From positions 47,412 through 111,411 of the forward strand of contig NZ_CP014803.1 of NCBI RefSeq assembly GCF_001969385.1: 64,000 nt of DNA. Reading direction: 5' to 3'. The notes beneath the pieces are model-generated. The model saw only the letters and a program-made list of their open reading frames with translations. It did not search any database and was not told the DNA's origin. Source of the DNA: Salipiger profundus (GTDB taxonomy: Bacteria > Pseudomonadota > Alphaproteobacteria > Rhodobacterales > Rhodobacteraceae). Positions 25,262 to 54,289 of the stretch are shown piece by piece. Position 1 is the first letter of the stretch; each line of letters opens with the position of its first letter. The translations under genes were made by a program, and so were the position numbers.

Positions 25262-25291
25262 TTGACATTATTTAGAAGTCTAAGTTATTAG
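25262..25291 (+). promoter_or_regulatory. promoter with SlyA-type operator before the aldehyde dehydrogenase
   Basis: TTGACA (25262-25267) and TATTAG (25286-25291) are 18 bases apart, and the perfect palindrome TTAGAAGTCTAA (25272-25283) sits between them. A repressor there would block RNA polymerase. It matches the TTAG-N4-CTAA form shared by several promoters in this window. Confidence 0.6.
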
Positions 25292-25317
25292 GACCTCAAG
25301 CCGGGAGGATACCTTAG

Positions 25318-26796
25318 ATGGAAAATCTGAAACTAGACGCGAAGCTCTCTCTTCAAGAACCAGCCCATCTCTACTACGGCGGCGCATGGGTGCCGCCACT
25401 AGAGGGAAAGTACGAAGACACTTTCAACCCAGGAACCGGCGAGCGGATCGGGTCGGTTGCGACGGCAAGTCGCGCCGATGTCGATGCGGCGGTTGCGGCA
25501 GCGAAAGAAGGGTTCGAGGTATGGCGGGATGTTGTGCCGCTGGAACGCGCACGTATCCTGAAGGAAATCGCAAATCTCTTGCGAAAGCATGGCGATGAAC
25601 TGGCGATGATGGACGCTGCAAACTGTGGCAACCCCTATACTGAAATGCGCGGCGACGCCGCGATTGCGGCAGCGCAGATGGAGTTTTTCGCCGGTCTTGT
25701 GACCGAAATGAAGGGTGATACGATCCCTATGGGACCAGAGCGCATCAACATGACCCTACGCCAGCCGATGGGCGTGGTTGCAAGGATTCTTGCCTTTAAT
25801 CATCCGTTCATGTTCTGCGGCGGAAAGATGGCAGCGCCTCTGGCCGCAGGCAATGCCGTCATCATCAAGCCGCCGGTTCAGGCTCCGTTGTCTTCGCTGC
25901 GGCTGGCGGAGCTCATCGATGGCCTGCTGCCTAAAGGCACGTTCAATGTTCTGCCGGGCGGCGTCGAGGCAGGAGCTGGGCTGGCCGAACATCCCGACGT
26001 CGCCAAGGTCACACTCATCGGCTCCGTACCCGCGGGCCGGGCGGTGATGCGCAGCGCGAGCGACACCGTCAAACCAGTGCTGCTCGAACTCGGCGGCAAG
26101 AACGCGCTGATCGCCTATCCGGACAGCGATCCGAAGAAGATCGCCGATGCGATCGTCGGCGGCATGAATTTCGGCTGGTGCGGGCAATCTTGCGGATCGA
26201 CGAGCCGCGCTTTCTTGCATGTAGACATCCACGATGCGGTCATCTCACATCTCAAAGCGGCTGTCGAACGGTACAAGCCAGGCATTCCGACAGAGCCGGA
26301 GACCACGATGGGGGCGATCGTCAGCCGGACACAGTTCGATCGGATCATGGACTTCATCGAATCCGCCATGAGCGAAGGCGCGCGTGCCGTAACCGGCGGC
26401 CATGCGGTGACCGAAGGTGCGCTGGCACAGGGAAGCTTCATCGCGCCGACGATTTTTGCGGATGTAACGCCGCAGATGCGTATCGCTCGCGAAGAGATTT
26501 TCGGGCCAGTTCTGGCGGTCCGCAAATGGTCGGACGAAGATTCCATGCTGAACGAGGTCAACGCACTTGAGCTGGGGCTGACCTGCGCAATTTGGACTCG
26601 GGACTTGGTTACGGCTCATCGCACGGCTGCTCGTGTCGAGGCCGGGTTTGTTTGGGTTAACGAAGTTGGCCGGCATTTCCTTGGTGCCCCGTTCGGTGGG
26701 GTCAAACAATCGGGTATCGGGCGCGAAGAAGGTATTGGCGAGCTGATTTCCTTCACCCATGAAAAGAATGTGCATATCAATCTGTCGGGTCAGTAA
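25318..26796 (+). CDS. NAD(P)-dependent aldehyde dehydrogenase
   Basis: A 492-aa aldehyde dehydrogenase. The Glu general base lies in LELGGKNAL, the nucleophile Cys in GWCGQSCGSTSRAF, and the cofactor-binding stretch in IIKPPVQAPLSS and LIGSVPAGRAVM. The start follows GGGAGGATACC. It could oxidise an aromatic aldehyde: the downstream genes include a benzoylformate-decarboxylase-like enzyme whose product would be an aldehyde. Substrate is inferred from context only; betaine-aldehyde-type enzymes are also close in sequence. Confidence 0.85.
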   Translation: MENLKLDAKLSLQEPAHLYYGGAWVPPLEGKYEDTFNPGTGERIGSVATASRADVDAAVAAAKEGFEVWRDVVPLERARILKEIANLLRKHGDELAMMDAANCGNPYTEMRGDAAIAAAQMEFFAGLVTEMKGDTIPMGPERINMTLRQPMGVVARILAFNHPFMFCGGKMAAPLAAGNAVIIKPPVQAPLSSLRLAELIDGLLPKGTFNVLPGGVEAGAGLAEHPDVAKVTLIGSVPAGRAVMRSASDTVKPVLLELGGKNALIAYPDSDPKKIADAIVGGMNFGWCGQSCGSTSRAFLHVDIHDAVISHLKAAVERYKPGIPTEPETTMGAIVSRTQFDRIMDFIESAMSEGARAVTGGHAVTEGALAQGSFIAPTIFADVTPQMRIAREEIFGPVLAVRKWSDEDSMLNEVNALELGLTCAIWTRDLVTAHRTAARVEAGFVWVNEVGRHFLGAPFGGVKQSGIGREEGIGELISFTHEKNVHINLSGQ

Positions 26797-26922
26797 CCCG
26801 GTGCAGAGGTAATGTGCGAACGGGGTCTGGGATCCAAAAGCTTTTTCTTTATTGATTGCTTTGGCCGGGATGAGACCATCCCTTCCTACCCTTTCTGCAA
26901 ACCGACAAGGATCTGAAAAATA

Positions 26923-27774
26923 ATGAGCAATGTTGCGAACGTCCCCGATATCATCCTCGAACCTATGGTTCGGAACGCCATTGTGGAGGACCTGGGTGCA
27001 GCAGGCGACGTGACAACCCGTTCCGTTCTGCCTGAAGGCACGCGCTACAAGGCGCAAATGCGTGCACGGCAGGACGCGGTTGTTTCTGGGATGCAGGTGG
27101 CCTCTCTGGCGTTTCGGCTGATTGATCCCGATCTTATTGTCGAGACTGTTGTCGCGGATGGTACGGCCTGCAAAACGGGCGATACCTTGATGCGTATAGA
27201 GGGATCGGCGGCGTCGATCCTTGCCGCAGAGCGTGTTGCCCTGAACTTTGCCGGGCGGTTGTCCGGGACGGCAACTTTGACAGCGTCCTATGTGCAGGAA
27301 CTTGCGGGTACCAAGACACGTATCACCTGTACACGCAAAACCACACCGGGGCTGAAGCTTGTCGAGAAACTCGCGATTTTGCATGGCGGCGGCCACAATC
27401 ACCGGTTTTCCCTGTCCGATGCAATCCTGATCAAGGACAACCATATCGCAGCGGCTGGTGGCATCAAACAGGTGTTGGAAGCCGTTCAGCGAAATGTGGG
27501 TCACATGGTCGTGGTCGAGATCGAGATCGACGGTTTGCATCAGTTGGACGAGGTGCTTCAGACCGGGGGCGCAGATGTCATCATGTTTGACAATATGTCG
27601 ACCGAAGACATGGCCGAAGCCGTAAAGCGCATTGACGGGCGGGCGAAGACAGAAGCCAGCGGGAATGTGACCCTTGGCCGTTTGCGCGAAATCGCATCGG
27701 CAAATGTGGATTATATTTCCTCCGGTGCTTTGACCCATTCGGCGGGGACCGTCGATTTCGGTTTGGATTTCTGA
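26923..27774 (+). CDS. nadC: carboxylating nicotinate-nucleotide pyrophosphorylase (quinolinate PRTase)
   Basis: Converts quinolinate and PRPP to nicotinate mononucleotide and CO2. The phosphate/quinolinate-binding stretch TRKTTPGLKLVEKLAILHGGGHNHRF and IKDNHI are fully conserved, so an active enzyme is expected. At 283 aa it is standard. No nadA or nadB is nearby. It lies between catabolic genes and is followed by a strong hairpin, so it seems to belong to the aldehyde dehydrogenase transcript. Whether it serves NAD synthesis or removal of pyridine-2,3-dicarboxylate is not clear. Confidence 0.85.
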   Translation: MSNVANVPDIILEPMVRNAIVEDLGAAGDVTTRSVLPEGTRYKAQMRARQDAVVSGMQVASLAFRLIDPDLIVETVVADGTACKTGDTLMRIEGSAASILAAERVALNFAGRLSGTATLTASYVQELAGTKTRITCTRKTTPGLKLVEKLAILHGGGHNHRFSLSDAILIKDNHIAAAGGIKQVLEAVQRNVGHMVVVEIEIDGLHQLDEVLQTGGADVIMFDNMSTEDMAEAVKRIDGRAKTEASGNVTLGRLREIASANVDYISSGALTHSAGTVDFGLDF

Positions 27775-27810
27775 TCCTCTGAACCGCTCCAGACCGTCTG
27801 AAATGCAAAA

Positions 27811-30710: not shown

Positions 30711-31096
30711 CCAACCCCTCCGCGCGAACGGTGTGCACAGCCGAACTGCAGAGCCTATGTTCCTTGCACCTATTGAATGGCCGTGAACCGCGCCGGGTTT
30801 GCCGGAGGCGTTACACAACGGTTGCCCGGCGCTGTGCGGCACAGTGGTGCAAGGCAGGTGTCGGCGCATGATGGTCGCGTACTGGAAAGCAACCGGCGCA
30901 CAATCCCGACACAGGGGCAAAACCACCCCGGAAGAAAGTCCATACTCGGGCCCAACGATAGGCACCCCGGCTTCCATGTCTTGACTTTGTACCAAGGCTC
31001 GGCACCTATGTTGCGCGCGCCACAACTCTGGAGTTCTTAGCTATCAAGTCCGGGCGGGCGCGCTGTTTGGATAAAAACCATGTGTGGAGACAGGCC
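30711..31096. other. intergenic region containing the marR promoter
   Basis: No gene is recognised. It ends with a possible -35 TTGACT (30981-30986), a weak -10 near 31007, the operator-like TTAGCTATCAAG at 31037-31048 and a GGAG ribosome site before a GTG start. Confidence 0.5.
31037..31048. promoter_or_regulatory. SlyA-type operator half-match upstream of marR
   Basis: TTAGCTATCAAG has a perfect left arm and a degenerate right arm of the TTAG-N4-CTAA palindrome, 49 bases before the marR start. Autoregulation through such a site is usual for MarR proteins. Confidence 0.45.
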
Positions 31097-31624
31097 GTGA
31101 GCGATGCGATGAAAGAAAAGCAATCAAGCCACGTACCTGTCCAACCCGACGAGCGCATGGCCCGGCTGGTACGACTGGCGGCCCGCGGGTTCAACCGGGC
31201 GCTTCAACTTCGACTGCAAACGGAAAATGTTACGTTCGGTCAGTGGATTTTCCTGCGCATCCTCTGGCAGGAAGACGGGTTGTCGCAACGCGAACTGAGC
31301 GACCGGGCGCATCTCACCGAACCCACCGCCCACACCGCGCTCATCAAAATGGAAGAATTGGGTTTCATAGAGCGACGCAACGTCGAGGGCAACAAACGGC
31401 GCCAGCACGCGTTTCTGACGCGGAAGGGCTTGGAGCTGCGCGACGTTCTCGAACCTCTGGCGCTCGAAGTGAACGATGCAGCGATGGCGGGACTGTCCAA
31501 GAAAGCTCAGGAAGACTTGCGACACGCACTTGCCGTGATGATCCGGAACCTCGAAAATGACGAACAGGATGCGGCCGCCAGAGGGGTCCGTGTTCCCCCG
31601 ACCAAGGGCAACACAGCAAACTGA
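31097..31624 (+). CDS. MarR-family regulator of the phthalate-type cluster
   Basis: A winged-helix MarR protein (175 aa). LRILWQEDGLSQRELSDRAHLTEPTAHTALIKMEELGFIERRNVEGNKRRQHAFLTRKG spans the recognition helix and wing. The GTG at 31097 is chosen because GGAGA lies about seven bases upstream; the preceding TTG at 31067 has none. The gene precedes the transporter genes. SlyA-type palindromes occur before it and before the following units, so it is the leading candidate for the local repressor. Confidence 0.82.
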   Translation: MSDAMKEKQSSHVPVQPDERMARLVRLAARGFNRALQLRLQTENVTFGQWIFLRILWQEDGLSQRELSDRAHLTEPTAHTALIKMEELGFIERRNVEGNKRRQHAFLTRKGLELRDVLEPLALEVNDAAMAGLSKKAQEDLRHALAVMIRNLENDEQDAAARGVRVPPTKGNTAN

Positions 31625-31934
31625 ATCGCGAGCCATGCGTGCCGAGTGTCCGGCGCGGGCCATTCAATGGCGGTTGCGGACATAGAGAGCCTATGGGGGC
31701 GGGGGTTTGAGGCCTGCTGCTCCGGGGCTCCACGGGTTGATAGTGCGTCACGACAAAGCACCTACGCCGGACACACGGCTTCGGCGTGTTCCGCGTCAGG
31801 AACTATGACTTGAGTGGCTTTCGCTGAACAATAGTCTCGACTTCAATCAGGGTTGACGGGTGCGAGTGGATAGACTACTAGCATTAAAGATAGATATCTA
31901 ATATTAGATGTCTACTGAAAACAGGGAGGAAGAC
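31625..31934. other. promoter region of the TRAP transporter genes
   Basis: No coding sequence is recognised. It holds the -35 candidate, the operator cluster listed separately, and the AGGGAGGAAG ribosome site of the binding-protein gene. Confidence 0.55.
31870..31915. promoter_or_regulatory. three clustered SlyA-type operator sites before the TRAP genes
   Basis: ATAGACTACTAG (31870-31881), ATAGATATCTAA (31890-31901) and TTAGATGTCTAC (31904-31915) lie downstream of a TTGACG -35 candidate (31853-31858). The last two together form a 22-bp near-perfect dyad around ATCTAATATTAGAT. This is the densest operator cluster in the region. Confidence 0.6.
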
Positions 31935-32924
31935 ATGAAATTTCCAATCAAAGCCGTTGCCGCATCGATCGGCCTCGCGGTTCTTGCGAGCGCTGCTTCC
32001 GCAGAAAGCGTTAATGTGACCCTTTCAGGCGGCAATCCCTCGGGGCTTTGGTCGCTTCTGGGCGCTGGTATTGACCGTGCCGTCAAGGCGGATGACCCGA
32101 GCGGCGTGGTGACCTATCAGGCCACCGGGGGTGGCTTTGCGAACATCGGCCTTCTGGGCCGTGAACGGACCGACCTGGGGATGGCACATGATGCCGAGAT
32201 CAAGCTGGCCCTCGCAGGGGACGAACCGTTTGACGCGCCGATCGAGAACCTTCAAGCCATCGGCTACATGTACAACTGGGCGCCGATGCACTTCTTCATC
32301 AAGAAGTCTCTTGCCGAAGAATATGGCATCGACAGCATTGACGACCTCGCGACGTCCGGCGCGGCGATCCGTGTTGCGAACAACAATGCCGGGAACATCG
32401 TCGCCAACATCACGACCTTCATGCTCGAAGAGGCGGGCTACGACGAAGCCACGATCGAGTCCAATGGCGGCGTGCTTGTCCGCGGTGGTTCGTCACAGCA
32501 AGCAGATCTGATTGCAGACGGCCGCACCGATATGGTGATCAACGGCATTTTCATCGGACATTCGTCGTTCCGTAAAGTTGACGAGGGCAATGACGTCGTG
32601 TTGCTCAGCGTTCCCGAAAACATCATCGCTGCGACCAACGAGCGTTTCGGAACCGGCACGTTCACAATTCCAGCCGACAGCTACAAGAACCAGACCGAAG
32701 ATGTCGTCACGCTCGCACTGGGTGCGATGGTAATCACTTCCGATGTACTGCCGGAAGAAACTGGCTACATGCTCGCAAAGAGCATCGCGTCCAATATCGA
32801 CGAGATCCGCGGCGTGCATAAGGCGATGCAGGCGCTCACACCGGAACTTCTGACGTCGCAGACCACGCTGCCGTTCCATCCTGGTGCGGAGCGTGCCTAC
32901 AAGGAACTGGGTCTGCTCAAGTAA
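31935..32924 (+). CDS. TAXI-type TRAP transporter substrate-binding protein
   Basis: A periplasmic solute receptor (329 aa) of the TAXI family. A Sec signal peptide (MKFPIKAVAASIGLAVLASAASA, cut near residue 24) is followed by VNVTLSGGNPSGLWSLLGAGIDRAVKADDP, the family's signature opening. VVTYQATGGGFANIGLL and IRVANNNAGNIVANITTFMLEEAGY are ligand-lobe elements. The start at 31935 lies seven bases after AGGGAGGAAG. With the fused permease downstream it forms a Na+-driven uptake system. In this context the ligand is probably phthalate or a related aromatic carboxylate. Confidence 0.88.
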   Translation: MKFPIKAVAASIGLAVLASAASAESVNVTLSGGNPSGLWSLLGAGIDRAVKADDPSGVVTYQATGGGFANIGLLGRERTDLGMAHDAEIKLALAGDEPFDAPIENLQAIGYMYNWAPMHFFIKKSLAEEYGIDSIDDLATSGAAIRVANNNAGNIVANITTFMLEEAGYDEATIESNGGVLVRGGSSQQADLIADGRTDMVINGIFIGHSSFRKVDEGNDVVLLSVPENIIAATNERFGTGTFTIPADSYKNQTEDVVTLALGAMVITSDVLPEETGYMLAKSIASNIDEIRGVHKAMQALTPELLTSQTTLPFHPGAERAYKELGLLK

Positions 32925-32941
32925 GGTCGATCCCGCGATCC

Positions 32942-32974
32942 GGCCGGCGCGCGCTGCAACGACACGCGCCGGCC
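32942..32974 (+). terminator. large intergenic hairpin between binding protein and permease
   Basis: A perfect 10-bp GC stem (GGCCGGCGCG / CGCGCCGGCC) with a 13-base loop and no T-run. Such hairpins behind binding-protein genes usually stabilise the upstream mRNA or dampen read-through, so the receptor is made in excess over the permease. Confidence 0.55.
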
Positions 32975-33090
32975 CACTCATGGACTGCACAGAGCAATGC
33001 CCCGCGGTGGCTACGTGAGATGTCACGTCATGTCATCGCGCGGCCCATACATCGCGGTTCTTTCTCTTCTCTGCCTTATACGGGGTCTAC

Positions 33091-34995
33091 ATGAATTTTC
33101 CTTCGCTTACAGAAACCGGTCGTCGTAGAAATTTAGGCTCGCCGATGAGAACCATCGTCATGGTTCTGGCGGCGGCATTCGCGGTTTGGGTAATCCACTC
33201 GAACCTCTTCATCATCTCCGATCCGCTCATTCAGGGCATTCTGTTCGTATCGGGCATTTTCACGATTCTCTTCCTCGCGATCGGCGCGACCTCGCGCGCG
33301 CCGGACAGCATTCCGATCTATGATTGGGTTCTCTCTGCGCTGAGCCTGGCCACAGGGGTGTATTTCTACGTGACCTCGGGAGCGATTGCGGACCGGATCA
33401 GTCTACTCGACGAATTCACAACCGATCAGTTTTTCTTTGGCTCAGCCTTGTTGTTTCTGACCATCGAAGCGACCCGCCGGACCACCGGCCTAGGCCTGAC
33501 CGGCGTTGTCGCCCTCTTCCTGATTTATAATCTGTTTGGCTCTCTTCTGCCGCCGCCATTCGGGCATCGCGTCAGCGAGTTCAGCTATCTCTTGGATATT
33601 CTGGTTTTCACCACCGATGGACTTTTTGGCGTGCCGCTTCAGGTCGTTGCCAGCTATGTTTTCCTGTTCGTGATGTTTGGAACATTCCTGGCCAAGGCCG
33701 GGGGAGGGGACTTCTTTTTCAACCTTGCAGCGCTTGTGACCGGCAATGCGCGCGGCGGCCCCGCCAAAATCGCGATCATTTCGTCGGGCCTGTACGGCAC
33801 GATGTCCGGGAGCCCAACATCCGATGTTGTTGCAACGGGGTCGATCACGATCCCTGTCATGAAGCGACTCGGCTATCGGGCACGGTTCGCGGGGGCGGTG
33901 GAAGTCGCGGCGTCGTCTGGCGGAAGCGCGATGCCTCCGATCATGGGGTCAGCAGCCTTCATCATGGCCGAGTATTCCGGCATTTCCTACAACGCCATCG
34001 TGCTCGCCGCTCTGGTGCCGGCGCTTCTATACTACACGGGTGTCTTCGCTCAGGTTCACTTCCGGTCAGTCAAGCACAACCTTCGACCCTCTGCAGACGA
34101 AATACCTTCAGCAAAGGAAACATTCAGGACCGGATGGGTTTTCCTGCTGCCGATCATCGGCATCATCGTCGCCCTCATTCTGGGGTATTCCCCGACCTTC
34201 ACAGCCGGTGTCGGAGTTCTGGTAACCATCCTGTCCGCGATGATGCTGAAAGACACACGGCTGTCACTGTGGCAGTTGGTGGAAGGGCTGGGGGCGACTA
34301 CGCTCCAGATTCTGCCAGTCGCCGGCGCTTGTGCCGCGGCCGGTCTTGTGATTGGCGGCTTGTCGATGACCGGCCTTGGAATGAAATCCGCGAACGTCAT
34401 TTTGACTGTCAGCAACATGCAACCACTGCTGACACTCGTTATCGCCGCGGTCGTCACGATTGTTCTCGGTCTCGGGATGCCAACGCCCAGTGCGTATATC
34501 CTGGCAGCCGTGCTGGTCGGACCGGCGCTGGCAAAGCTCGGTTTCCCGACGTTGCCGAGCCAGATGTTTCTGCTCTACTACGCGATTCTCTCGGCACTGA
34601 CGCCACCGATTGCTGTGGCTGCAATCGCGGCCTCAGCGATTGCCGACGAAGACCCCTTCAAGATCGCGTTCTCTGCAGTCCGGCTAGCCGTCGTCGGCTT
34701 CCTGCTGCCCTTCGCCTTCGTGTGGAACCCGGGTATCCTCCTAGAACTTGGCCCCCTGGCAAACACCTTGGCCGTCGTGGGTGCGTTTGCCGGAGCCCTC
34801 GCGGTCGCAGCCTCTCTGGAAGGCTTGGTCAAGACGCAACTCACTGCAATCGAAAGGGGCGTACTTCCCATCGCTGCGATTGGCGCCGTAAGCCCATATT
34901 TGGCGGTATCCGCGATCTGTATTTTGGTGATTGTCGCAATGCTAATCCGGCAGATCGCTTTCACGACAGAAAGCGCCCACGTCGACAGTGCCTAG
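33091..34995 (+). CDS. TRAP transporter fused permease (4TM-12TM)
   Basis: A 634-aa integral membrane protein combining the small (DctQ-like) and large (DctM-like) TRAP subunits, as is normal for TAXI systems. Conserved features are KIAIISSGLYGTMSGSPTSDVVATGSITIPVMKRLGY, AGAVEVAASSGGSAMPPIMGSAAFIMAEYSGISY and LGLGMPTPSAYILAAVLVGPAL, which form the transport core. It follows the binding protein gene directly and probably shares its promoter. Confidence 0.92.
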   Translation: MNFPSLTETGRRRNLGSPMRTIVMVLAAAFAVWVIHSNLFIISDPLIQGILFVSGIFTILFLAIGATSRAPDSIPIYDWVLSALSLATGVYFYVTSGAIADRISLLDEFTTDQFFFGSALLFLTIEATRRTTGLGLTGVVALFLIYNLFGSLLPPPFGHRVSEFSYLLDILVFTTDGLFGVPLQVVASYVFLFVMFGTFLAKAGGGDFFFNLAALVTGNARGGPAKIAIISSGLYGTMSGSPTSDVVATGSITIPVMKRLGYRARFAGAVEVAASSGGSAMPPIMGSAAFIMAEYSGISYNAIVLAALVPALLYYTGVFAQVHFRSVKHNLRPSADEIPSAKETFRTGWVFLLPIIGIIVALILGYSPTFTAGVGVLVTILSAMMLKDTRLSLWQLVEGLGATTLQILPVAGACAAAGLVIGGLSMTGLGMKSANVILTVSNMQPLLTLVIAAVVTIVLGLGMPTPSAYILAAVLVGPALAKLGFPTLPSQMFLLYYAILSALTPPIAVAAIAASAIADEDPFKIAFSAVRLAVVGFLLPFAFVWNPGILLELGPLANTLAVVGAFAGALAVAASLEGLVKTQLTAIERGVLPIAAIGAVSPYLAVSAICILVIVAMLIRQIAFTTESAHVDSA

Positions 34996-35771: not shown

Positions 35772-36082
35772 AGCGAGATGGCGCGCTTGCCGCGACTCAT
35801 GCGCAGGCTGGCTGCCATGGCACCTCAGTAACGGGCCCGGCAAGCCGCTGTCGGGGAGGTTCCGGAGCACAATTGCGCGAAAGTATCTCGGTCAGGCGAT
35901 CTCGTCAGATTGGTCTAGTTCAGAACCCGCTATTTCGGGCAACAAGTGAGGTCATGTCCTACAACGCAGGCAAAAAAAGTGGCAGGTTACGTTGACAGAC
36001 AAAACTTAGAGAGCTAAGAATAGTTGAGCGGTAGAGAACCACTCATCCACTGAAAGAGTCGGATGCCCTTGGAGGAGCCCAG
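35772..36082. other. promoter region of the Rieske oxygenase gene
   Basis: No gene is recognised. The interval ends with TTGACA at 35992-35997, the SlyA-type palindrome at 36006-36017, and GGAGGAG before the ATG. Confidence 0.55.
36005..36018. promoter_or_regulatory. SlyA-type operator before the Rieske oxygenase gene
   Basis: CTTAG-AGAG-CTAAG is a perfect dyad whose 12-bp core TTAGAGAGCTAA fits TTAG-N4-CTAA. It begins eight bases after a perfect TTGACA -35 box, where it would overlap the promoter spacer. Confidence 0.6.
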
Positions 36083-37363
36083 ATGCTTACACCCGAAGAG
36101 AATGAACTGCTTACACGCGTAACGGGGGATGCCCCGATGGCGCAACTCATGCGTCAACACTGGACGCCCGTATGCCTGATCGAAGAGGTTGAAGAGTCGG
36201 ACGGCAAACCGCTTCGAGTCGAAGTTCTCGGCGAAAGCTATGTCGCGTTCCGGGATACCAAGGGTCGTCTGGGAATGCTGGATGAGCTTTGCCCGCACAG
36301 AAAGGCCTCTCTGGTATATGGCCGAAACGAGGAATGTGGGCTGCGCTGCCTTTATCACGGCTGGAAGATGGACGTCGAAGGCAATGTCGTCGCCATGTCT
36401 TCGGAGCCGGAAGGCAGTCCATTGATGGACAAGGTCAAACATCGTTCCTACCCCGTGCGGGAGTGGGGCGGTTTCGTCTGGGCTTGGCTCGGCGAGAAAG
36501 ACGACATGCCCGAGTTCCAGCCGCCGGCCTTTGCGCCAACCGAAGACACCCCGGTTTCGATCCTGAAAATTCGCGTTCCTGCAAACTGGGCGCAGATCCA
36601 CGAGGGTCAGATCGACAGCGCGCACTCGTCGTCGCTCCATTCGTCGAATATGGTTCCGGCACGGGTCGAGGGCGCCGCGGCAGACGACAAATCATGGTAC
36701 CGCCCGTCGACCGACAAATCCCCACGTATGCAGACTGAGACCACGAGCTACGGTTTCCACTACGCGGCGATCCGAAAGCCAATCAAAAACGCTCAGACGC
36801 ACAACTACCTGCGTATCACCGAATTTATCGCGCCTTATTATTCGCTGATTCCGCCGAACAACAACTACCGGGTCGCCAGCGTCATCGTGCCGATCAATGA
36901 CGATGAGACAGCATTTCACTTCATAGCCTTCGACGGACCGAACGTTCCCTCCACCGAAGAGTGGCGCAAGTTTGCCCATGCCGTACCGGGTGAGGACGTG
37001 GACCACAAATGGCGCTCTCTCCGGACGTTGGAGAACGACTTCAAGCAGGACCGCGAAAGGATGAAAGAAGGCCACTTTACCGGCGTGGACGGCATTCCGA
37101 ACGAAGATATTGTGATGTGGGTTTCGATGGGTAGCCGCGTACAGCGTCACACGGACATTCTTGGGGCCTCCGACCTGGCGATTGTCGAGTTCCGCCGCCT
37201 CATGGCCGATGCGGCAAAGAAAGTCGCCGAAGGTGGCCAGGCAATCGGCACCGAGTCGAAGATTCCGCAAAGGGTAATCGCCTCTCACGAGGGAGTGTAT
37301 CCTAAGGACGTCGATTGGCGAACACTGGTGGACACGTCGAGCAAGACGGAAGCGGCGGAATAA
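36083..37363 (+). CDS. pht3: Rieske non-haem iron oxygenase, phthalate 4,5-dioxygenase type
   Basis: Catalytic oxygenase subunit (426 aa). The Rieske [2Fe-2S] ligands are Cys70, His72, Cys89 and His92 (CPHR...CLYHGW). The mononuclear iron site is Asp178, His181 and His186 (DSAHSSSLH). There is no beta subunit gene, and a PDR-type reductase is encoded downstream, which matches the class IA phthalate dioxygenase layout. The expected reaction is phthalate to cis-4,5-dihydroxy-4,5-dihydrophthalate. The assignment rests on the adjacent dihydrodiol dehydrogenase and dihydroxyphthalate decarboxylase genes. Followed by an intrinsic terminator. Confidence 0.82.
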   Translation: MLTPEENELLTRVTGDAPMAQLMRQHWTPVCLIEEVEESDGKPLRVEVLGESYVAFRDTKGRLGMLDELCPHRKASLVYGRNEECGLRCLYHGWKMDVEGNVVAMSSEPEGSPLMDKVKHRSYPVREWGGFVWAWLGEKDDMPEFQPPAFAPTEDTPVSILKIRVPANWAQIHEGQIDSAHSSSLHSSNMVPARVEGAAADDKSWYRPSTDKSPRMQTETTSYGFHYAAIRKPIKNAQTHNYLRITEFIAPYYSLIPPNNNYRVASVIVPINDDETAFHFIAFDGPNVPSTEEWRKFAHAVPGEDVDHKWRSLRTLENDFKQDRERMKEGHFTGVDGIPNEDIVMWVSMGSRVQRHTDILGASDLAIVEFRRLMADAAKKVAEGGQAIGTESKIPQRVIASHEGVYPKDVDWRTLVDTSSKTEAAE

Positions 37364-37388
37364 CTTGCGCACATGTTTCCTCCCTGAA

Positions 37389-37427
37389 CCGTCCAAGGCC
37401 TCAAGGGGTTTTGGGCGGCTCTTTTTT
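37389..37427 (+). terminator. intrinsic terminator after the Rieske oxygenase gene
   Basis: Eight-bp stem CCGTCCAA / TTGGGCGG (one G-U pair) followed closely by six T residues. It separates the oxygenase from the FMN enzyme gene. Confidence 0.75.
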
Positions 37428-37490
37428 CGTGGTGCCGTCGGACTTTCATAGCTTCCCTCGACGGATTCTGCTCGGCGGGCGACAGGCGTT

Positions 37491-38633
37491 ATGACGACAG
37501 CAATCAATATCGAAGACTTGCGGGCGCAGGCACGGCGTCGCCTGCCACGGGTGGTGTTCGATTATTTGGATGGGGGCGCGGAATCGGAGGTGACGCTGCG
37601 GCACAATCGCAGTTCCTTCACGAATATCGTTCTCACGCCGCGAATCCTCAAAGGGGGGAGCGTCGATCTCACCTTGGAGCTGTTCGGGGAAACATACTCG
37701 AAGCCGTTTTTCATAGGGCCGACAGGGCTGAACGGCCTCTACTGGCCCCAGGGAGATCTGCACCTCGCCGCTGCGGCCGAACGAGCCGGGGTCGGGTTCA
37801 CGGTTTCGACCGCCTCGAACACGACGCTGGAAGAGATCGCGCGGAGGAGCAAGGGTCCCCTCTGGTTCCAGCTTTATCCGTGGGGGAAGGGCGCATTCGC
37901 TGATGCGCTGATCGACCGGGCACAGGCGGCCGGTTACTCGGCTCTGGTACTGACTGTCGATTCACTCGTGGGCGGCAAGCGCGAACGTGATCTGCGGCAC
38001 GGCTTCGCCCACGAAATCCGCATTGGCCCTCGGACTGTTCTCGATGGGCTTCTGCATCCTGCTTGGCTGACCTCCGTATGGCTCGGGCCGCACCGTCCCA
38101 GACTTGAGAACCTCTTGGACTTTGTCGGAAACAGCGCGAGCGACAGAGAACTGGCCGAGTTTACCCGATCTCAGCGGAACCCGGAGTTTTCTTGGGGAGA
38201 TGTTCGCCGCATTCGGGAGAAATGGAAAGGCCCGCTGCTGATCAAGGGTATCATGTGCCCAGAAGATGCGATTGACGCGCAACGCGCCGGTGTGGATGGA
38301 ATCGTCGTCTCGAACCATGGTGGCCGTCAGCTTGATGGCGCTCCTGCCACCATCGACGTACTCGCAGATATCATCGCGGCTCTTGATCGGAAGTTTCCGG
38401 TTCTGCTGGACGGCGGCATTCGTCGCGGCAGTGACATCGTGAAAGCCCTCGCCTTGGGTGCGAAGGGCATTCTGCTGGGTCGCGCGCCGCTCTATGGCTT
38501 GGCGGCGCAAGGCGAGGCGGGCGTGTCACGGGCGCTTTCGATCCTTGAAGAGGAGATGACGAGGACCATGACCTTTGTGGGCGCAAGATCCGTGTCTGCG
38601 GTCTCTGATTTCAACGTCGAAATTCGACGGTAA
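37491..38633 (+). CDS. FMN-dependent alpha-hydroxyacid oxidase/dehydrogenase
   Basis: A 380-aa protein of the glycolate oxidase / L-lactate and (S)-mandelate dehydrogenase family. The catalytic HGGRQLD box with base His, ARRRLPRVVFDYLDGGAESE at the start, and LDGGIRRGSDIVKALALGAKGILLGR for phosphate binding are all present. It oxidises an L-2-hydroxyacid to a 2-oxoacid. With the D-2-hydroxyacid dehydrogenase and ThDP decarboxylase upstream it could process both enantiomers of a mandelate-type compound. Its substrate is unproven. Confidence 0.85.
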   Translation: MTTAINIEDLRAQARRRLPRVVFDYLDGGAESEVTLRHNRSSFTNIVLTPRILKGGSVDLTLELFGETYSKPFFIGPTGLNGLYWPQGDLHLAAAAERAGVGFTVSTASNTTLEEIARRSKGPLWFQLYPWGKGAFADALIDRAQAAGYSALVLTVDSLVGGKRERDLRHGFAHEIRIGPRTVLDGLLHPAWLTSVWLGPHRPRLENLLDFVGNSASDRELAEFTRSQRNPEFSWGDVRRIREKWKGPLLIKGIMCPEDAIDAQRAGVDGIVVSNHGGRQLDGAPATIDVLADIIAALDRKFPVLLDGGIRRGSDIVKALALGAKGILLGRAPLYGLAAQGEAGVSRALSILEEEMTRTMTFVGARSVSAVSDFNVEIRR

Positions 38634-38701: not shown

Positions 38702-38730
38702 TTGACACACATAACTTAGCTATCTAAACA
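38702..38730 (+). promoter_or_regulatory. promoter and SlyA-type operator before the reductase gene
   Basis: A perfect TTGACA (38702-38707) is followed after eight bases by TTAGCTATCTAA (38716-38727), a complete match to TTAG-N4-CTAA. The arrangement is nearly the same as at the oxygenase and esterase promoters. Confidence 0.65.
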
Positions 38731-40878: not shown

Positions 40879-41867
40879 GCAATCTCAAACTATCCCTTGC
40901 CATGGGAAATTATGACCGGACGCGTGCCATTGTGGATGGAAGAGTGCAGATAGACGGTGTCGATCCCGTGCCCATGCTACTGTCCCCAGAGGAAATGTTC
41001 TTCCGGGCGTTCCGCCACGAAGCTTTCGATATCAGCGAAATTTCGTTGTCCTCCTATTCGATCTCGGTCGCCCGCGGAAATCCGCACTATGTCGCGATCC
41101 CGGTCTTTCTGAGCCGGGCGTTCCGTCACACTTCTGTCTACATTCGAACCGACAAAGGAATCGAAACGCCTCAGGATCTGAGGGGCAAGCGCATTGGGAT
41201 CGCCGAATACCAGCTGTCCGCCAATGTCTGGGTGCGCGGCATTCTCGAAGAGGAATACGGTGTCAAACCCTCCGACATCATCTGGGTGCGCGGCGGTATG
41301 GATACGCCGGGCCGGCCCGAAAAGATCAAGGTTCAGTTACCCGGCGATATCCGCATGGAAGAGGCGCCGGTCGGCAGCACGTTGAATGGCATGCTCGAAG
41401 CCGGTGAGATCGACGGCTTCGTCGGCCCGCGTTGGCCGCGTTGTTTCGCCGAGCGGCATCCGCACGTAGGTCGGCTTTTTGCAGACAGCATCGCTACGGC
41501 CGAAGCCTATTTCGAAAAGACCCGGATCTTTCCGATCATGCATGTTCTTGGGGTGCGCCGCAGCCTCGCCGAGGAATACCCGTTCCTACCCGCCGCCCTG
41601 CTCAAGGCGTTCACGCAATCGAAGCTAATAGCAGAAGAGGCCCTGTCGGACACCTCTGCAACGAAAGTAACGATGCCCTTCGTCGAGGATAATCTCAACC
41701 GCGTGCATGCGCTAATGGGTGACGACCCCTGGAGCTATGGCGTCGGCGGCAACGCCCATGTCCTGAACAAGTTTTTGGATTACCACGCGAGTCAGGGACT
41801 GTCGCCGCGCCGGGTGGAGATCGAAGAACTGTTCCATCCCTCGACCCTAGAAGCCTACAGCCTTTAA
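40875..41867 (+). CDS. pht5: 4,5-dihydroxyphthalate decarboxylase
   Basis: Removes one carboxylate from 4,5-dihydroxyphthalate to give protocatechuate. A 330-aa protein of the Pht5 group, which has a periplasmic-binding-protein-like fold without a signal peptide. Recognised by LKLSLAMGNYDRTRAIVDGRVQIDGVDPVP, FDISEISLSSYSISVARG, LRGKRIGIAEYQLSANVWVRGILEEEYGV and PVGSTLNGMLEAGEIDGFVGPRWPRCF. It overlaps the previous gene by four bases (ATGA). Its product enters the pca genes encoded at 17-24 kb. Confidence 0.88.
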   Translation: MSNLKLSLAMGNYDRTRAIVDGRVQIDGVDPVPMLLSPEEMFFRAFRHEAFDISEISLSSYSISVARGNPHYVAIPVFLSRAFRHTSVYIRTDKGIETPQDLRGKRIGIAEYQLSANVWVRGILEEEYGVKPSDIIWVRGGMDTPGRPEKIKVQLPGDIRMEEAPVGSTLNGMLEAGEIDGFVGPRWPRCFAERHPHVGRLFADSIATAEAYFEKTRIFPIMHVLGVRRSLAEEYPFLPAALLKAFTQSKLIAEEALSDTSATKVTMPFVEDNLNRVHALMGDDPWSYGVGGNAHVLNKFLDYHASQGLSPRRVEIEELFHPSTLEAYSL

Positions 41868-41880
41868 GAGGAGCGCCACA

Positions 41881-42324
41881 ATGGAAAAGTACGCACCCGG
41901 AGATATCGTCGAGGTCGAAACAACGAAGGGGCTGGCTTACGTACAGCTCACACATACCCACCCGAGCTATCCTCCCGTGGTCAAGTTCCTCCCGGGGTCT
42001 TACGAACACCGGCCCGACAATGTGACTGTATTGGCCGAAAAACCCGCACCGATAGCCATGGTCCCCCTAACGGGGGTATTGAATCGGTTAGGGTTGAAGC
42101 ACGCGCTTGCCGGAAGGTCGGACATTCCGCATTCGGAAAGAAGCTTCCCGATTTTCCGGATGCCGATTCGCGACAAGCAAGGCAAGATCATCTATTGGTG
42201 GTTCTGGGACGGCCAAGGGTTGACCTATTCTACCGAGCTGATGGAGCAGCAGGAGACGCTGCCAATGCGCGAGGTTATGTCTTCAGGCCACTTCCTGGAT
42301 CAGTTGCTGGCCCATGACGAGTAG
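41881..42324 (+). CDS. conserved hypothetical protein in the phthalate operon
   Basis: A 147-aa soluble protein with no confident family. It starts 13 bases after the decarboxylase stop behind GAGGAG and is surely co-transcribed. The N-terminal GDIVEVETTKGLAYVQLTHTHPSYPPVVKFLPG looks like a small beta-barrel of the type seen in Imm26-like and related domains. The C-terminal half is Trp-rich (KIIYWWFWDGQGLTYSTELM). No signal peptide or metal motif is evident. Its fixed place between decarboxylase and exporter suggests an accessory role. Confidence 0.6.
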   Translation: MEKYAPGDIVEVETTKGLAYVQLTHTHPSYPPVVKFLPGSYEHRPDNVTVLAEKPAPIAMVPLTGVLNRLGLKHALAGRSDIPHSERSFPIFRMPIRDKQGKIIYWWFWDGQGLTYSTELMEQQETLPMREVMSSGHFLDQLLAHDE

Positions 42325-42351
42325 CAGGAACAATCCGCGCCGACAGGCGCG

Positions 42352-43287
42352 ATGACCGCGGGGTTCGGTGGCCTCTTGGCCGCGTTCGGAGCGTTCTGCT
42401 ACGCCTTGAGTTCGGTTTCCATTGCCAAGAGCTCCCAATCGGTTCAGGGCCGCGGCAACGACGTTCTTATCTCTGTGCTGATGACCGCCGTTGTCTCCGG
42501 GGCGCTTTGGCTGCTCCTGGGTCCAACGATGCCGGAACTTGGACGCGGTGTACTCATTGGTGTGGCCTATTTCGTTGCAGCCGGGGTGCTTGGCAACGTT
42601 GTCGGCCGTCTTACGCTGTTTCGCTCCGTAGAGCTTGCCGGAGCCATCGAGACCGGTTTCATCCGACGCCTGATACCGGTGTTTGCGGCGCTGTTGGCGT
42701 TCTTTCTGCTGGGTGAGGTCATCACCACACCTGTGGTCATCGCCTTCTTTCTGGTTACCAGCGGCGTGGTGGTCATGATGTCACGCGCTTCTGTCAAATC
42801 GGCTTCTGACTTAGCGGTCGGAGAGCCCGACCCTCTAGAGAGGAACAAGGGCCGCGCGATGGCCGTAGCGTCGGCCGCCGGATATGGTGGCTCTTTCGTC
42901 TCCCGAAAACTCGCGATGCAGACTTTGCCAGACCCTCTGGCCGGCGTGTTCATCGGTGCGATGACGGGTCTAATGTGGTTCGCGGTCTCCTGGGTGTTCC
43001 GGTTCAAATCGCGCAACGCGCTGTCCTGGCGAATTCAGCGGCCGAGCGGGTGGCAACTTCTGGCTGGCGGTTCGATGACCGTTGGACAAGTGGCGCTGTT
43101 CTTTTCGCTTATATTTACTGATGTGACCGTCGTCGCGATCATGTCATCGATCGAGATGTTCTTTGCCGCCTGGCTCGCAGGCCATATCTTCAAAACCGAA
43201 CGGCGCCCAGGTCCCAGATTCTACCTGGCGTCTGCACTGGCCGCGACCGGTGTGACACTTCTCGCCCTTGCGCCAAGGTTTGGTTAG
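42352..43287 (+). CDS. EamA/DMT-family transporter
   Basis: A 311-aa membrane protein with ten predicted helices in two EamA repeats (LLAAFGAFCYALSSVSIAK; GYGGSFVSRKLAMQTLPDPLAGVFIGAMTGL). It ends SSIEMFFAAWLAGHIFKTERRPGPRFYLASALAATGVTLLAL, typical of the drug/metabolite superfamily. It follows the hypothetical gene by 27 bases on the same strand, so it may exchange an intermediate or protocatechuate. The stop overlaps the convergent marR gene by four bases. Confidence 0.8.
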   Translation: MTAGFGGLLAAFGAFCYALSSVSIAKSSQSVQGRGNDVLISVLMTAVVSGALWLLLGPTMPELGRGVLIGVAYFVAAGVLGNVVGRLTLFRSVELAGAIETGFIRRLIPVFAALLAFFLLGEVITTPVVIAFFLVTSGVVVMMSRASVKSASDLAVGEPDPLERNKGRAMAVASAAGYGGSFVSRKLAMQTLPDPLAGVFIGAMTGLMWFAVSWVFRFKSRNALSWRIQRPSGWQLLAGGSMTVGQVALFFSLIFTDVTVVAIMSSIEMFFAAWLAGHIFKTERRPGPRFYLASALAATGVTLLALAPRFG

Positions 43288-43754: not shown

Positions 43755-43810
43755 TTAGATGTCTTATTTCTTGACAATTCTAAAGCCACTCTTATAGTAA
43801 GGCAATCTTA
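43755..43810. promoter_or_regulatory. divergent marR / ferredoxin-operon control region
   Basis: TTAGATGTCTTA (43755-43766) is a one-mismatch SlyA-type site. Towards the ferredoxin gene, TTGACA (43771-43776) and TATAGT (43793-43798) are 16 bases apart. A second dyad, TAAG-GCAAT-CTTA (43798-43810), overlaps the likely transcription start. On the other strand TTGCCT and TAGAAT, 17 bases apart, could drive marR. Confidence 0.65.
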
Positions 43811-50575: not shown

Positions 50576-50576
50576 A

Positions 50577-51458: not shown

Positions 51459-52246
51459 AGCCGCACCCGCTGCCCAAGACTGTCGCGCCGCTGCCCGACG
51501 AGTTGTTGTCAGGTTGGTTGTCTAGGCTGGCGGCGGCCAACTACTGTGATGATGCGGAACTACTGGCTCATCTCAGAATCGATACCGCGCATGGCACCGC
51601 CTTGAACTTCAACGTCGACGCGGCTGCGGCGGCGAAGATTGCCAACGCCGCACGGATTGACCCAGATGTTGTGCGATCTTTGACCTTCCCAGCAATGACG
51701 ACACGAGAAGCCTCGCTGACGGCCCAGATACCATTCCAGCATTGCCTGCAATGTTCCAGAGAGGGCCTTTCGCTCAAGCATTGGAGGCGAGCCTGGGCAT
51801 TCGACTGCCAGGTTTGTGGGACGAGACTTGTGCCGACGCTCGGCAAGGCCAGTGGCGAACAGATGCCCGAAAAGCTGATAAATCGTGCGCGCAACGGCGC
51901 CGCGCGGCTTGAATACGCCGCGCGATTACGCAGCTCCAAGCAATTTCGGCGCGCAATGCGCGCGGTCACCTTTGCCATATCATTAAAGGCCTTCCGCGGA
52001 GATCCGTTATACGCTCTTCAGGGCCACAGGCTGGAAGTAAGGCTGTTTGGCCTTGCTGCAATTGATGCAGCCCAATCCCGTCCACTGGTCAAAGCGGCCA
52101 TCTCAAGCTCCGGCATCGACGACTATGCAAGGGTTGCTCTATTGCGCGCCTTCGATAAGGAGCCACGTCTGCTTGCCGCGGTTGTTTACATCGCCCGGCA
52201 GCGCGCGAAAAGCATAGGCGCGATGGCAGTGGAATCTCATAATTAA
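51455..52246 (+). CDS. tniQ: TniQ targeting protein, copy 1
   Basis: A 263-aa TniQ/TnsD-family protein. The N-terminal PLPDELLSGWLSRLAAAN block and the zinc knuckle Cys97, Cys100, Cys118, Cys121 (HCLQC...DCQVCG) are diagnostic. The GTG start overlaps the tniB stop as GTGA. It is short for the family (Tn402 TniQ is about 400 aa). Its stop codon lies inside one of the right-end binding sites. Confidence 0.88.
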   Translation: MKPHPLPKTVAPLPDELLSGWLSRLAAANYCDDAELLAHLRIDTAHGTALNFNVDAAAAAKIANAARIDPDVVRSLTFPAMTTREASLTAQIPFQHCLQCSREGLSLKHWRRAWAFDCQVCGTRLVPTLGKASGEQMPEKLINRARNGAARLEYAARLRSSKQFRRAMRAVTFAISLKAFRGDPLYALQGHRLEVRLFGLAAIDAAQSRPLVKAAISSSGIDDYARVALLRAFDKEPRLLAAVVYIARQRAKSIGAMAVESHN

Positions 52247-52409: not shown

Positions 52410-52755
52410 GCGCGGAACCGCTGACGGAATGCGTGAAGCTGAGAAGAGATGACAAACCGGTCGAACCGGGGATCGGGACACCCCAGGGGGTCAAGGCGCA
52501 GAAAGCGCGCAATTTTGATTGGGACCCGATCCGCGGACTTCATCTGGGCCAGCGGCTAGACCGCACCACAAAGGCCGTAGACATGACTGCTTTCGGCATA
52601 GGCGCGTCAATTCCCAGCTTGCGCAGCAGGGGTCGTCCAGACATGGGAACACTTGCCCTCGCCAGAGATGCCCACTGCGCGTTGGCGACGGTCCACCAAT
52701 GACTTGCGCCACCGGACCTGTGGGGGAACCGGCGCAGCGCCAGTTCCCCATCGGC
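52410..52755. other. probable IS110 flank, no gene recognised
   Basis: GC-rich sequence after the transposase tail, probably the untranslated end of that insertion sequence followed by host DNA. No gene or clear terminator is seen before the convergent esterase stop. Confidence 0.4.
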
Positions 52756-54195
52756 TCATTCTGCCGGAACCCAGGGCCGGTTATAGGCTGCCACGCGCCA
52801 ATCACCGTGTTCGATGAACCGGGGGGCGCTCCCGGTTTCCAGCGCCTCGGCTGCGGCGTTCAGCGCCTCGGGCGATGTCTCGGGCCAGGCGCCCGTTTCG
52901 ATCCGTTCGACCAGGGTCTCGACGATGGCCGTGCTTTCGGCAGCCGTGAACTCGCAATGGCCCGTGCCCTGGACCAGCGACTGCCGATACAGATCGCCGG
53001 TACCCTGCTCCTGCACCAGCGCGCCGTAGCCTTCCATCAGCGTGTAGGGAATGGCCCAGTCGCCCAGCATGTGGATGCGGATCGCCGGAACCTGCAGATC
53101 GCCGGTCGTCGTGCGCCCGTCTGCGGCCCAGAAATCGCGCGCATAATCCGAGGCCGCGATGCGGGGGGCGGCGTCGATCCTGGCAATGTCGGCCTGAAGG
53201 TCCAAACCGGCCTGTTCGTAGAGCGCCTCAACCGTCCGCGCCATCGCGGGTGCGGCATTCTGGTAGAAGGCGGCATAGTCGACCCCCTCGTTCCCGGAAA
53301 GTTGCTGCCCCGATGCGGCGTTTTCGAACAGAAGCCGCGAGGACCCGCCAACATTACCGCCGATGCGCAGCGCCGAGGCCACGATCATGTCGGCCATGGC
53401 GCCGGCATCCGCGGTGTCGGGTAGTTCGGTCCCCTCGACCATCCACGGCGACCACTGTCCGATGGCGAAGGCAAGCGCCAGCCGCGCGCGGCCCTCCGGG
53501 CTTTCGCCCGCCGTTTCGATGGCGGCCATCCAGGACGCACGGATCGCGTCAAGGCTGCGCTCGCCACCCGCTCCGGCATTGGGCAGGCCGACGATGGCGA
53601 GATCGCTGGCCGGACCGTGCCCAGCGGCCTCATAGCTTTCGCCCAGCAGGGTCTGCATGGCGAACCAGCCATCCAGGAAACTGCTCATGATCCAGACCGG
53701 CGTATGGGCGGCAAGCACGGCGGCACCGTCGATCCTGTCCGGGTAATCCTCGGCCGAAGCGAGGCTGTCGAGCCCTCCGCCAGAACAGCCGTATTGCAGC
53801 ACCATGTCAGGAGCGCGCTCCAGGTCCGTGAAAATGTCCTGAACAGCTTGTAGATTCAGGATTTCACGCTGCGGATCGTATTGCCACAGGCGCAGCGGGT
53901 GCCGGGCGAGCCCGGCGAAGGCATAGCCACGACCGAGCAGGTCGTCATACCGCTGGACCGCTGACGCGACCGAAACGTTGCTGGCGAAATCCAGATCCCT
54001 GAGTAGTCGACCATTCCAGTTCTCGGGCACGCGGATCAGCCATGCCGTCCCGTCCGGCAGGGTTCCCGCATGTTCGTTGAAGGCGGGCTGCTCCTGCGCC
54101 GACGCGAGCGGGGCGAAGCCCGCGGTCAGAGCGAGGCAAAGCACCACCATTCCGGTCCGCGAACGCGGGCCGGCCAAATTGGCTGTCCGTGACAT
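52756..54195 (-). CDS. secreted alpha/beta-hydrolase (putative esterase)
   Basis: A 479-aa exported hydrolase. A signal peptide (MVVLCLALTAGFAPLASA, cleavage near residue 33) precedes the mature protein. The nucleophile Ser138 lies in YGCSGGG; candidates for the acid and His are Asp379 (HMLGDW) and His413 (GTGHCEF). The large insert between elbow and acid suggests a lid. Its promoter carries a SlyA-type operator like those of the phthalate genes, so it may release aromatic acids from esters in the periplasm. No closer family is recognised. Confidence 0.75.
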   Translation of the reverse strand: MSRTANLAGPRSRTGMVVLCLALTAGFAPLASAQEQPAFNEHAGTLPDGTAWLIRVPENWNGRLLRDLDFASNVSVASAVQRYDDLLGRGYAFAGLARHPLRLWQYDPQREILNLQAVQDIFTDLERAPDMVLQYGCSGGGLDSLASAEDYPDRIDGAAVLAAHTPVWIMSSFLDGWFAMQTLLGESYEAAGHGPASDLAIVGLPNAGAGGERSLDAIRASWMAAIETAGESPEGRARLALAFAIGQWSPWMVEGTELPDTADAGAMADMIVASALRIGGNVGGSSRLLFENAASGQQLSGNEGVDYAAFYQNAAPAMARTVEALYEQAGLDLQADIARIDAAPRIAASDYARDFWAADGRTTTGDLQVPAIRIHMLGDWAIPYTLMEGYGALVQEQGTGDLYRQSLVQGTGHCEFTAAESTAIVETLVERIETGAWPETSPEALNAAAEALETGSAPRFIEHGDWRVAAYNRPWVPAE

Positions 54196-54264
54196 GAATT
54201 TCCTCCAGTTTGATGCAGCGATGAAATCCGGCTCCTCTTCCGGGGAACCATCGCCGGGAAAAAC

Positions 54265-54289
54265 ATAGATAGCTAATTATTAGTGTCAA
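54265..54289 (-). promoter_or_regulatory. esterase promoter with SlyA-type operator
   Basis: On the minus strand TTGACA is followed after seven bases by TTAGCTATCTAT, almost the same as the reductase promoter at 38702 (TTGACA, eight bases, TTAGCTATCTAA). The start codon is 70 bases downstream. The IS5-type element abuts the -35 box. Confidence 0.65.

Follow-up and report, generated by a model that had tools for sequence, protein, structure and literature searches.

How are the genes of a phthalate cluster, spread over several units, brought under one control? The question is raised by a 64,000-nucleotide stretch of Salipiger profundus DNA (the window; contig NZ_CP014803.1, positions 47,412 to 111,411; C8:47412-111411 in a genome of 5,424,264 bases and 9 contigs), whose genes are predicted to encode phthalate catabolism together with an MHETase-like esterase and a second NadC. 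An earlier note, made from the letters of the window, had proposed one local MarR regulon over uptake, ring oxidation and ester cleavage, with a shared SlyA-type operator. Conserved sites and a genomic link with one of the two MarR proteins support a single regulon. We give a probability of about 0.8 to the reading that the dyad TTAG-N4-CTAA is the operator of MarR1 (31067-31624), which would repress the local units until phthalate or an early product of its breakdown releases it.

Distribution and conservation of the TTAG-N4-CTAA dyad

The exact dyad occurs three times in the window (25272, 36006 and 38716), just where the earlier note had placed it, compared to a mean of 0.15 and a maximum of 2 in 100 dinucleotide shuffles. 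Five exact copies exist in the 5.42 Mb genome, three of them in the window. The one-mismatch sites reported at 31890, 31904, 43755, 45920 and 54265 were all found, as was a weaker site at 31037 (TTAGCTATCAAG, two mismatches). A whole-genome scan allowing one mismatch, which the earlier note had suggested, placed 10 of 52 sites in the window, a count modestly above chance (dinucleotide shuffle mean 5.33; 2 of 100 shuffles reach 10). Between 25001 and 54500 there are 8 such sites, compared to a mean of 6.0 and a maximum of 15 in mononucleotide shuffles. These counts are near chance, therefore imperfect sites cannot be claimed from them; the number of one-mismatch sites was dropped as evidence, and conservation decides. 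A group of 8 one-mismatch sites in 19.9 kb of contig C7 likewise looks like chance (6.4 expected by mononucleotide shuffle), and tblastn with 24 cluster proteins gave no match to it. Two more one-mismatch dyads in the window, at 7804 and 16241, are missing from the earlier note; both lie outside open reading frames (ORFs) of at least 120 residues.

Conservation was measured in 87 loci totaling 1.75 Mb: the window, six plasmid records (L006-L011), and L014-L093, the best 80 of 315 confirmed oxygenase contigs. Twenty-four window proteins were placed in the related loci by tblastn, and 2,816 dyads (256 half-sites, gaps of 0-10) were ranked by their presence in a 180-base region around the start of the oxygenase gene. 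First comes TTAG-N4-CTAA, with matches in 55/58 non-redundant and 84/87 of all oxygenase upstream regions; once its own shifted and extended forms are set aside, the runner-up occurs in 6/58. The outer eight letters are constant across loci and N4 is widely variable. The three misses are L017, which has a site with one mismatch, L049, which has none, and L077, whose exact site lies beyond the 160-base limit and is caught at 170. The loci span Roseobacteraceae, Rhizobiaceae, Devosia, Tistlia, Pigmentiphaga, Halomonas, Marinobacter and Comamonadaceae, and oxygenase identity across the alpha-, beta- and gammaproteobacterial loci extends down to 60%.

The earlier note had asked whether the motif is as common inside coding sequence as in promoters. 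It is not: across the 87 loci there are 175 exact dyads outside and 0 inside 880 kb of homology-supported coding sequence, which was trimmed by 15 bases at each end before counting. Control dyads with permuted letters reached no more than 50 inside and 31 outside.

Upstream regions were tallied gene by gene, counting non-redundant regions and sites with at most one mismatch unless called exact. Sites precede the oxygenase in 57/58 regions and the reductase in 39/44 (38/44 exact); divergent oxygenase and reductase genes share one intergenic region, so these two counts overlap. The TAXI solute-binding protein has sites in 25/34 regions, many in pairs, the universal stress protein in 5/5 (none exact), the esterase homologue in 5/5 (three exact), and marR2 in 3/4, with TAAG always on the same side. 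Aldehyde dehydrogenase regions contain a site in 7/20, including exact sites 33 and 38 bases ahead of the homologue in L008 and L010. The operon-internal controls were nearly empty: Gfo 0/39, decarboxylase 1/47, 147-residue protein 1/34 and TRAP 1/38, or, pooled, 3/158 with at most one mismatch and 0/158 exact. Other regions gave 0/6 for NadC, 0/6 for the FMN dehydrogenase, 2/16 for the TPP enzyme, 0/3 for the hydroxyacid dehydrogenase, and 4/22 for EamA (L059, L062, L064 and L065); in three of these four, the same site also precedes TAXI. Thus, seven of the eight promoters named in the earlier note (aldehyde dehydrogenase, TAXI/TRAP, oxygenase, reductase, marR2/ferredoxin, universal stress protein and esterase) recur in diverged relatives, and the aldehyde dehydrogenase and marR2 sites are the most weakly supported. 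The eighth, marR at 31037, is not supported, and neither is autoregulation of marR through it: 4/52 MarR1 upstream regions have a site, and near relatives have CTAGCTATCAAG, with three mismatches.

The specificity of the word differs between hosts. In 12 genomes reached through the loci, with contigs matched by coordinates, 26/68 exact sites fall in the fetched cluster stretches, which account for roughly 0.5% of the sequence; another 2 lie within 1 kb of their ends. In Salipiger bermudensis HTCC2601 all three exact sites are cluster sites (two in L014, the third at the aldehyde dehydrogenase position), as are 2/2 in Rhizobium albus and 3/4 each in Devosia LC5, Tistlia and Stappia MMSF_3263. 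TTAG-N4-CTAA is specific to the cluster in some hosts and occurs elsewhere too in others.

Genomic link between the dyad and MarR1

Two MarR genes sit in the cluster, and both products match PF01047 (MarR1 39.6 bits, MarR2 59.6 bits, cut-off 24.6). The earlier note had pointed to both. Only MarR1 is a general partner of the dyad: among the 57 loci flanked on each side by 9 kb or more, a MarR1 homologue is present in 53, compared to 11 for MarR2 (at least 55% identity), 10 for the LysR protein of 46882-47907, and 5 for IclR. The four loci that lack MarR1 are L020, L036, L057 and L058. When 20 genomes were searched with MarR1, the top match lay within the cluster or adjacent to it, judged by coordinates, in 16, including the genomes of L020, L057 and L058. 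The cluster copy is second by E-value among the MarR1 matches in the L050 genome, and the search of the incomplete L025 assembly gave no convincing match; the other two genomes outside the 16 are those of L032 and L036.

The reverse test used the MarR protein of L080 as the query and took 10 of the 40 listed plasmid records (121 matches in all), with 37-71% identity and 8 kb on each side. The exact dyad is present in 9/10 of these loci, and in the tenth, L103, two sites with one mismatch each lie between nadC and marR. A Rieske oxygenase is annotated in 6/10, therefore the reverse test is not wholly independent of the oxygenase test. The MarR1 proteins share 25 invariant positions over 18 aligned sequences, including Gly-x-Trp-x-Phe-Leu-Arg and Glu-Pro-Thr. 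The term SlyA-type holds for the DNA word, which is the same, but not for the protein: MarR1 scores 27.2 bits with the SlyA model PRK03573 (cut-off 120). Its score with the HpaR model TIGR02337 is 41.7 bits, also below the cut-off (121.2).

Promoter geometry and proposed mechanism

TTGACA ends 8, 8, 7 and 4 bases ahead of the dyads at 36006, 38716, 54265 (minus strand) and 25272, which bears out the spacings noted earlier. Related promoters with an exact dyad were searched for a -35 element, counted where a TTGACA-like hexamer within the searched stretch agreed at 5 or more of its 6 positions. The hexamer is present in 24/56 oxygenase promoters, ending 7-8 bases before the dyad in 18/24, and in 31/38 reductase promoters, ending 7-8 bases before it in 28/31. 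In many loci of the Rhizobiaceae type, reductase and oxygenase diverge from a region with two dyads spaced by about 58-63 bases; the dyad pairs of TAXI promoters are spaced by 14, 43-47 or 112-124 bases. Such pairs make cooperative binding possible.

We propose that a MarR1 dimer would sit in or beside the core promoters of seven units: TAXI/TRAP uptake; the oxygenase; the reductase, dehydrogenase and decarboxylase; the aldehyde dehydrogenase; the ferredoxin and amidohydrolase; the universal stress protein; and the esterase. With a 17-base spacer, the dyad would fill most of the gap between -35 and -10, and its last three letters would begin the -10. With the dyad in the spacer, a bound dimer would occlude RNA polymerase. 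Without inducer, bound MarR1 would block the polymerase; phthalate or an early breakdown product, the candidates suggested by the pathway, would release it, and the units would switch on together. What the analysis observed is the sites, their conservation and absence from coding sequence, the -35 spacing and the genomic link with this MarR subfamily; that MarR1 binds the dyad, that it represses and does not activate, and which compound releases it are inferences.

Several observations count against this assignment. The redundancy filter used shared 8-mers and not phylogeny, so the counts are of related sequences and not independent events. In 4/20 genomes the top match to MarR1 is weak, lacks linkage or lies elsewhere, and MarR1 is generally without an operator of its own (the 4/52 above). 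The absence from coding sequence includes one borderline case: the exact site at 1500 of L010 overlaps the MarR1 start and would not count as outside had the ends not been trimmed. The cluster does not have the word to itself in Halomonas A40-4 (1/10 exact sites in the cluster) or Limnohabitans (1/9). The -35 spacing is different in 6/24 oxygenase and 3/31 reductase promoters. A further 32 oxygenase and 7 reductase promoters have no 5-of-6 TTGACA in the stretch examined and are silent on geometry; in beta- and gammaproteobacterial loci, most oxygenase promoters have no TTGACA-like hexamer there.

On one rival reading MarR1, at the same operator, is instead an activator or dual regulator that aids RNA polymerase when phthalate is present. 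BhbR2 is described as a MarR activator of an aromatic operon that covers the -35 (PMC12016517), and SlyA as working in both directions (PMC5797941). However, most promoters whose -35 can be recognized have the dyad in the spacer downstream of it, and a dimer bound there would block RNA polymerase, making activation unlikely. The dyad might also be bound by another regulator, such as MarR2, IclR or an unlinked protein, with MarR1 linked to it for other reasons. Genes for MarR2 and IclR lie in the window, and the genome holds 27 MarR-domain matches, 21 of them over the cut-off. The distribution argues for MarR1 instead: its 53/57 well-flanked loci compare to 11/57 for MarR2 and 5/57 for IclR, sites are retained in L008, L009 and L011 without MarR2 or IclR homologues, and loci picked by MarR1 contain the dyad in 9/10. 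We regard a different binding protein as quite improbable.

The extent of the regulon depends on the imperfect sites. If they were chance AT-rich palindromes and the exact sites alone were real, the regulon would shrink to the oxygenase, reductase and aldehyde dehydrogenase units. Near-expectation counts of one-mismatch sites and the similar chance-like C7 group fit this idea, but the recurrence of sites ahead of the universal stress protein, the esterase, TAXI and marR2, set against 3/158 operon-internal controls, makes it very improbable. Repression by MarR1 of all seven units is the reading that we retain.

Cluster genes and comparison with known systems

Window proteins were assigned by Pfam and NCBIfam scans. 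From 24467 the order is IclR, aldehyde dehydrogenase, NadC, TPP enzyme, 2-hydroxyacid dehydrogenase, MarR1, TAXI/TRAP, a 208-residue protein, the Rieske oxygenase with a LigXa C-terminus, the FMN 2-hydroxyacid dehydrogenase, reductase, Gfo/Idh dehydrogenase, a 330-residue binding-protein-like protein, a 147-residue protein, EamA, MarR2, Rieske ferredoxin, a 102-residue protein, amidohydrolase, universal stress protein, LysR and hydroxyacyl-CoA dehydrogenase. The oxygenase shares 99% identity with its Pelagimonas phthalicica counterpart, and the make-up is that of a phthalate 4,5-dioxygenase cluster: Rieske/LigXa oxygenase, reductase, Gfo/Idh dehydrogenase and an adjoining 330-residue decarboxylase-like protein. 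The aldehyde dehydrogenase, TPP enzyme and NAD and FMN 2-hydroxyacid dehydrogenases (25318-30710 and 37491-38633) presumably resemble a mandelate-like side-chain pathway. The 330-residue protein is a putative 4,5-dihydroxyphthalate decarboxylase, based on its length, compared to the gene described in PMC6051330, and on the annotation of a Polaromonas cluster. The second operator of the uptake pair overlaps the first ATG of the TAXI ORF, and the TAXI start is more likely near 31935 than at that ATG.

Table 1. Proposed operators, regulator and target genes in the window (window coordinates).
Feature	Position	Strand	Location or basis
Exact operator TTAGAAGTCTAA	25272..25283	.	Promoter of aldehyde dehydrogenase 25318-26796
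Operator ATAGATATCTAA, first of pair	31890..31901	.	TAXI/TRAP uptake promoter
Operator TTAGATGTCTAC, second of pair, 14 bases on	31904..31915	.	Overlaps first ATG of TAXI ORF
Exact operator TTAGAGAGCTAA, 8 bases past TTGACA	36006..36017	.	Rieske oxygenase promoter
Exact operator TTAGCTATCTAA, 8 bases past TTGACA	38716..38727	.	Reductase operon promoter
Imperfect operator TTAGATGTCTTA	43755..43766	.	Between marR2 (43284-43736, -) and Rieske ferredoxin (43816-44217, +)
Imperfect operator ATAGACATCTAA	45920..45931	.	Promoter of universal stress protein 45978-46802
Imperfect operator TTAGCTATCTAT (on - strand), 7 bases past TTGACA	54265..54276	.	Esterase promoter
Aldehyde dehydrogenase, predicted target	25318..26796	+	PF00171
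Second NadC (quinolinate phosphoribosyltransferase), no operator of its own seen	26923..27774	+	TIGR00078
MarR1, proposed regulator, TTG-started ORF	31067..31624	+	PF01047; Phaeobacter annotation begins 30 bases later
TAXI solute-binding protein 31908-32924 and fused TRAP permease 33091-34995, predicted targets	31908..34995	+	PF16868, PF06808
Rieske oxygenase with LigXa C-terminus 36083-37363 and FMN-dependent 2-hydroxyacid dehydrogenase 37491-38633, predicted targets	36083..38633	+	PF00355, PF19301, PF01070
Reductase, Gfo/Idh dehydrogenase, 330-residue putative 4,5-dihydroxyphthalate decarboxylase, 147-residue protein, EamA transporter, predicted targets	38763..43287	+	
Tannase/MHETase-like hydrolase, signal-like N-terminus (by eye), predicted target	52756..54195	-	Predicted model and structural match

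The hydrolase of 52756-54195 matched no Pfam family over its cut-off in the Pfam scan; PF07519 gave 15.6 bits (E 0.0076, cut-off 29.8). Its predicted model (pLDDT 90.9) has MHETase as the best structural matches, with E 8.1e-11, TM 0.39 and a root-mean-square deviation of 14, values that would fit a shared core at most. Tannases and feruloyl esterases are defined by a Cys-Ser, Asp, His-Cys arrangement. Across 37 sequences C137-S138, D379 and H413 are invariant and C414 is kept in at least 90%, as positions in the sequence. Exact operators precede the homologue in L057, L060 and L061. In the Pigmentiphaga loci L080 (6110), L082 (6110) and L090 (6130), exact operators precede a different hydrolase of about 490 residues; Pfam on two of the three gave weak alpha/beta-hydrolase matches below the cut-off. 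With two different hydrolases behind operators, ester cleavage may have joined the regulon more than once. Exact operators also precede genes not found in the window: a phenol-hydroxylase-type monooxygenase (L081, 5991), an M20 peptidase-like protein (L048, 17840) and an alpha/beta-fold hydrolase (L101, 4232). Two Mu-transposase/TniB/TniQ sets (48926-52246 and 55884-59204), same-sized by their ORFs, with families assigned from the first, lie 6,958 bases apart. They flank the esterase and a DDE transposase, and may have brought the esterase in.

NadC (26923-27774) scores 307.9 bits with TIGR00078 (cut-off 198.4) and is one of 2 copies in the genome. A second NadC lies in or beside the cluster in 23/87 oxygenase loci and 4/10 MarR-anchored plasmid loci, in diverged types of 39-100% identity; examples besides the window are L023, L065, L066, L068, L074, L096, L100, L101 and L103, and in five loci nadC is directly 3' of the oxygenase. 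Chang and Zylstra are said in PMC6051330 to have found, in 1999, a role for quinolinate phosphoribosyltransferase in growth on phthalate. A phthalate-resistant second NadC was set aside as a new idea: by eye, it has the same conserved motifs as the NadC of the chromosome, and the growth role is already in print. Human QPRT is described as binding phthalic acid (Kd 5.2 μM) with similar tightness to quinolinate (4.8 μM) (PMC4726147). When L008 7900-13100 is compared to window 25000-31100, the aldehyde dehydrogenase, TPP enzyme and hydroxyacid dehydrogenase look broken or unannotated, and the nadC between them is intact. The L008 nadC DNA is 94-98% identical to that of the window, compared to 70-77% for most of the remaining cluster, which suggests recent exchange or strong selection. 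Near the cluster of a Thioclava plasmid (L010, 28362-28574) lies a 213-base stretch of BKC-1 beta-lactamase predicted by PLSDB.

MarR control of aromatic catabolism is already well known. CbaR is reportedly a MarR modulator of the cbaABC chlorobenzoate genes, in work of Providenti and Wyndham from 2001. We take CbaA to be related to the oxygenase family of the window; the likeness is MarR control of an oxygenase operon. A CbaR operator of the same TTAG-N4-CTAA form may already have been described. In the literature searched, which covers few subscription papers, no description of TTAG-N4-CTAA for phthalate genes was found. By title, searches with operator spellings returned work on SlyA and other MarR regulators, a cyanobacterium, and human TCF7L2/diabetes genetics, and none on phthalate. 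For MarR with phthalate, the annotation in PMC6051330 was the only phthalate MarR gene noticed among the matches listed.

The chances are about even that TTAG-N4-CTAA and the Glu-Pro-Thr MarR subfamily form a general ortho-phthalate switch of Proteobacteria. The pair would be kept across alpha-, beta- and gammaproteobacteria while transporters, esterases and gene order are exchanged, and new units such as the MHETase-like esterase and the spare NadC would join by gaining the 12-base word or by entering an operon with it. A 2026 review describes known ortho-phthalate clusters as encoding their own transcription factors, likely isomer-discriminating, and as sources of biosensor parts; the part of it covered names no MarR-type factor (PMC13040137). 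The prediction made here spans 87 loci and joins a regulator to its operator and its set of targets. The operator can flag phthalate-induced genes of unknown function, as with the Pfam-unnamed esterase, and could serve in ortho-phthalate sensors.

Among described systems, SlyA of Salmonella and E. coli has the consensus TTAGCAAGCTAA and is alike in operator: a MarR protein at a TTAG-N4-CTAA word, with the same outer eight letters and N4 variable in our loci. SlyA is a global H-NS antagonist (PMC5797941), whereas MarR1 would govern a local catabolic regulon. Alike in setting is phtR of Sphingobium yanoikuyae SHJ, a MarR gene annotated beside phthalate 4,5-dioxygenase, dehydrogenase, decarboxylase and quinolinate phosphoribosyltransferase genes; it is known from annotation and likened to marR1 by neighborhood. 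Its cluster shares a 993-base decarboxylase gene, but the electron carriers differ from those of the window (PMC6051330). BhbR2 of Pigmentiphaga kullae H8 is likewise a MarR protein with a palindromic site on an aromatic catabolic promoter, but the site is TTGATT-N5-AATCAA and BhbR2 activates (PMC12016517). CouR of Rhodococcus jostii, likened here by description, parallels the mechanism we propose for MarR1: a MarR protein that represses aromatic-acid catabolism until a compound of the pathway releases it, although its effector is a CoA thioester and its genes are different (PMC4737184).

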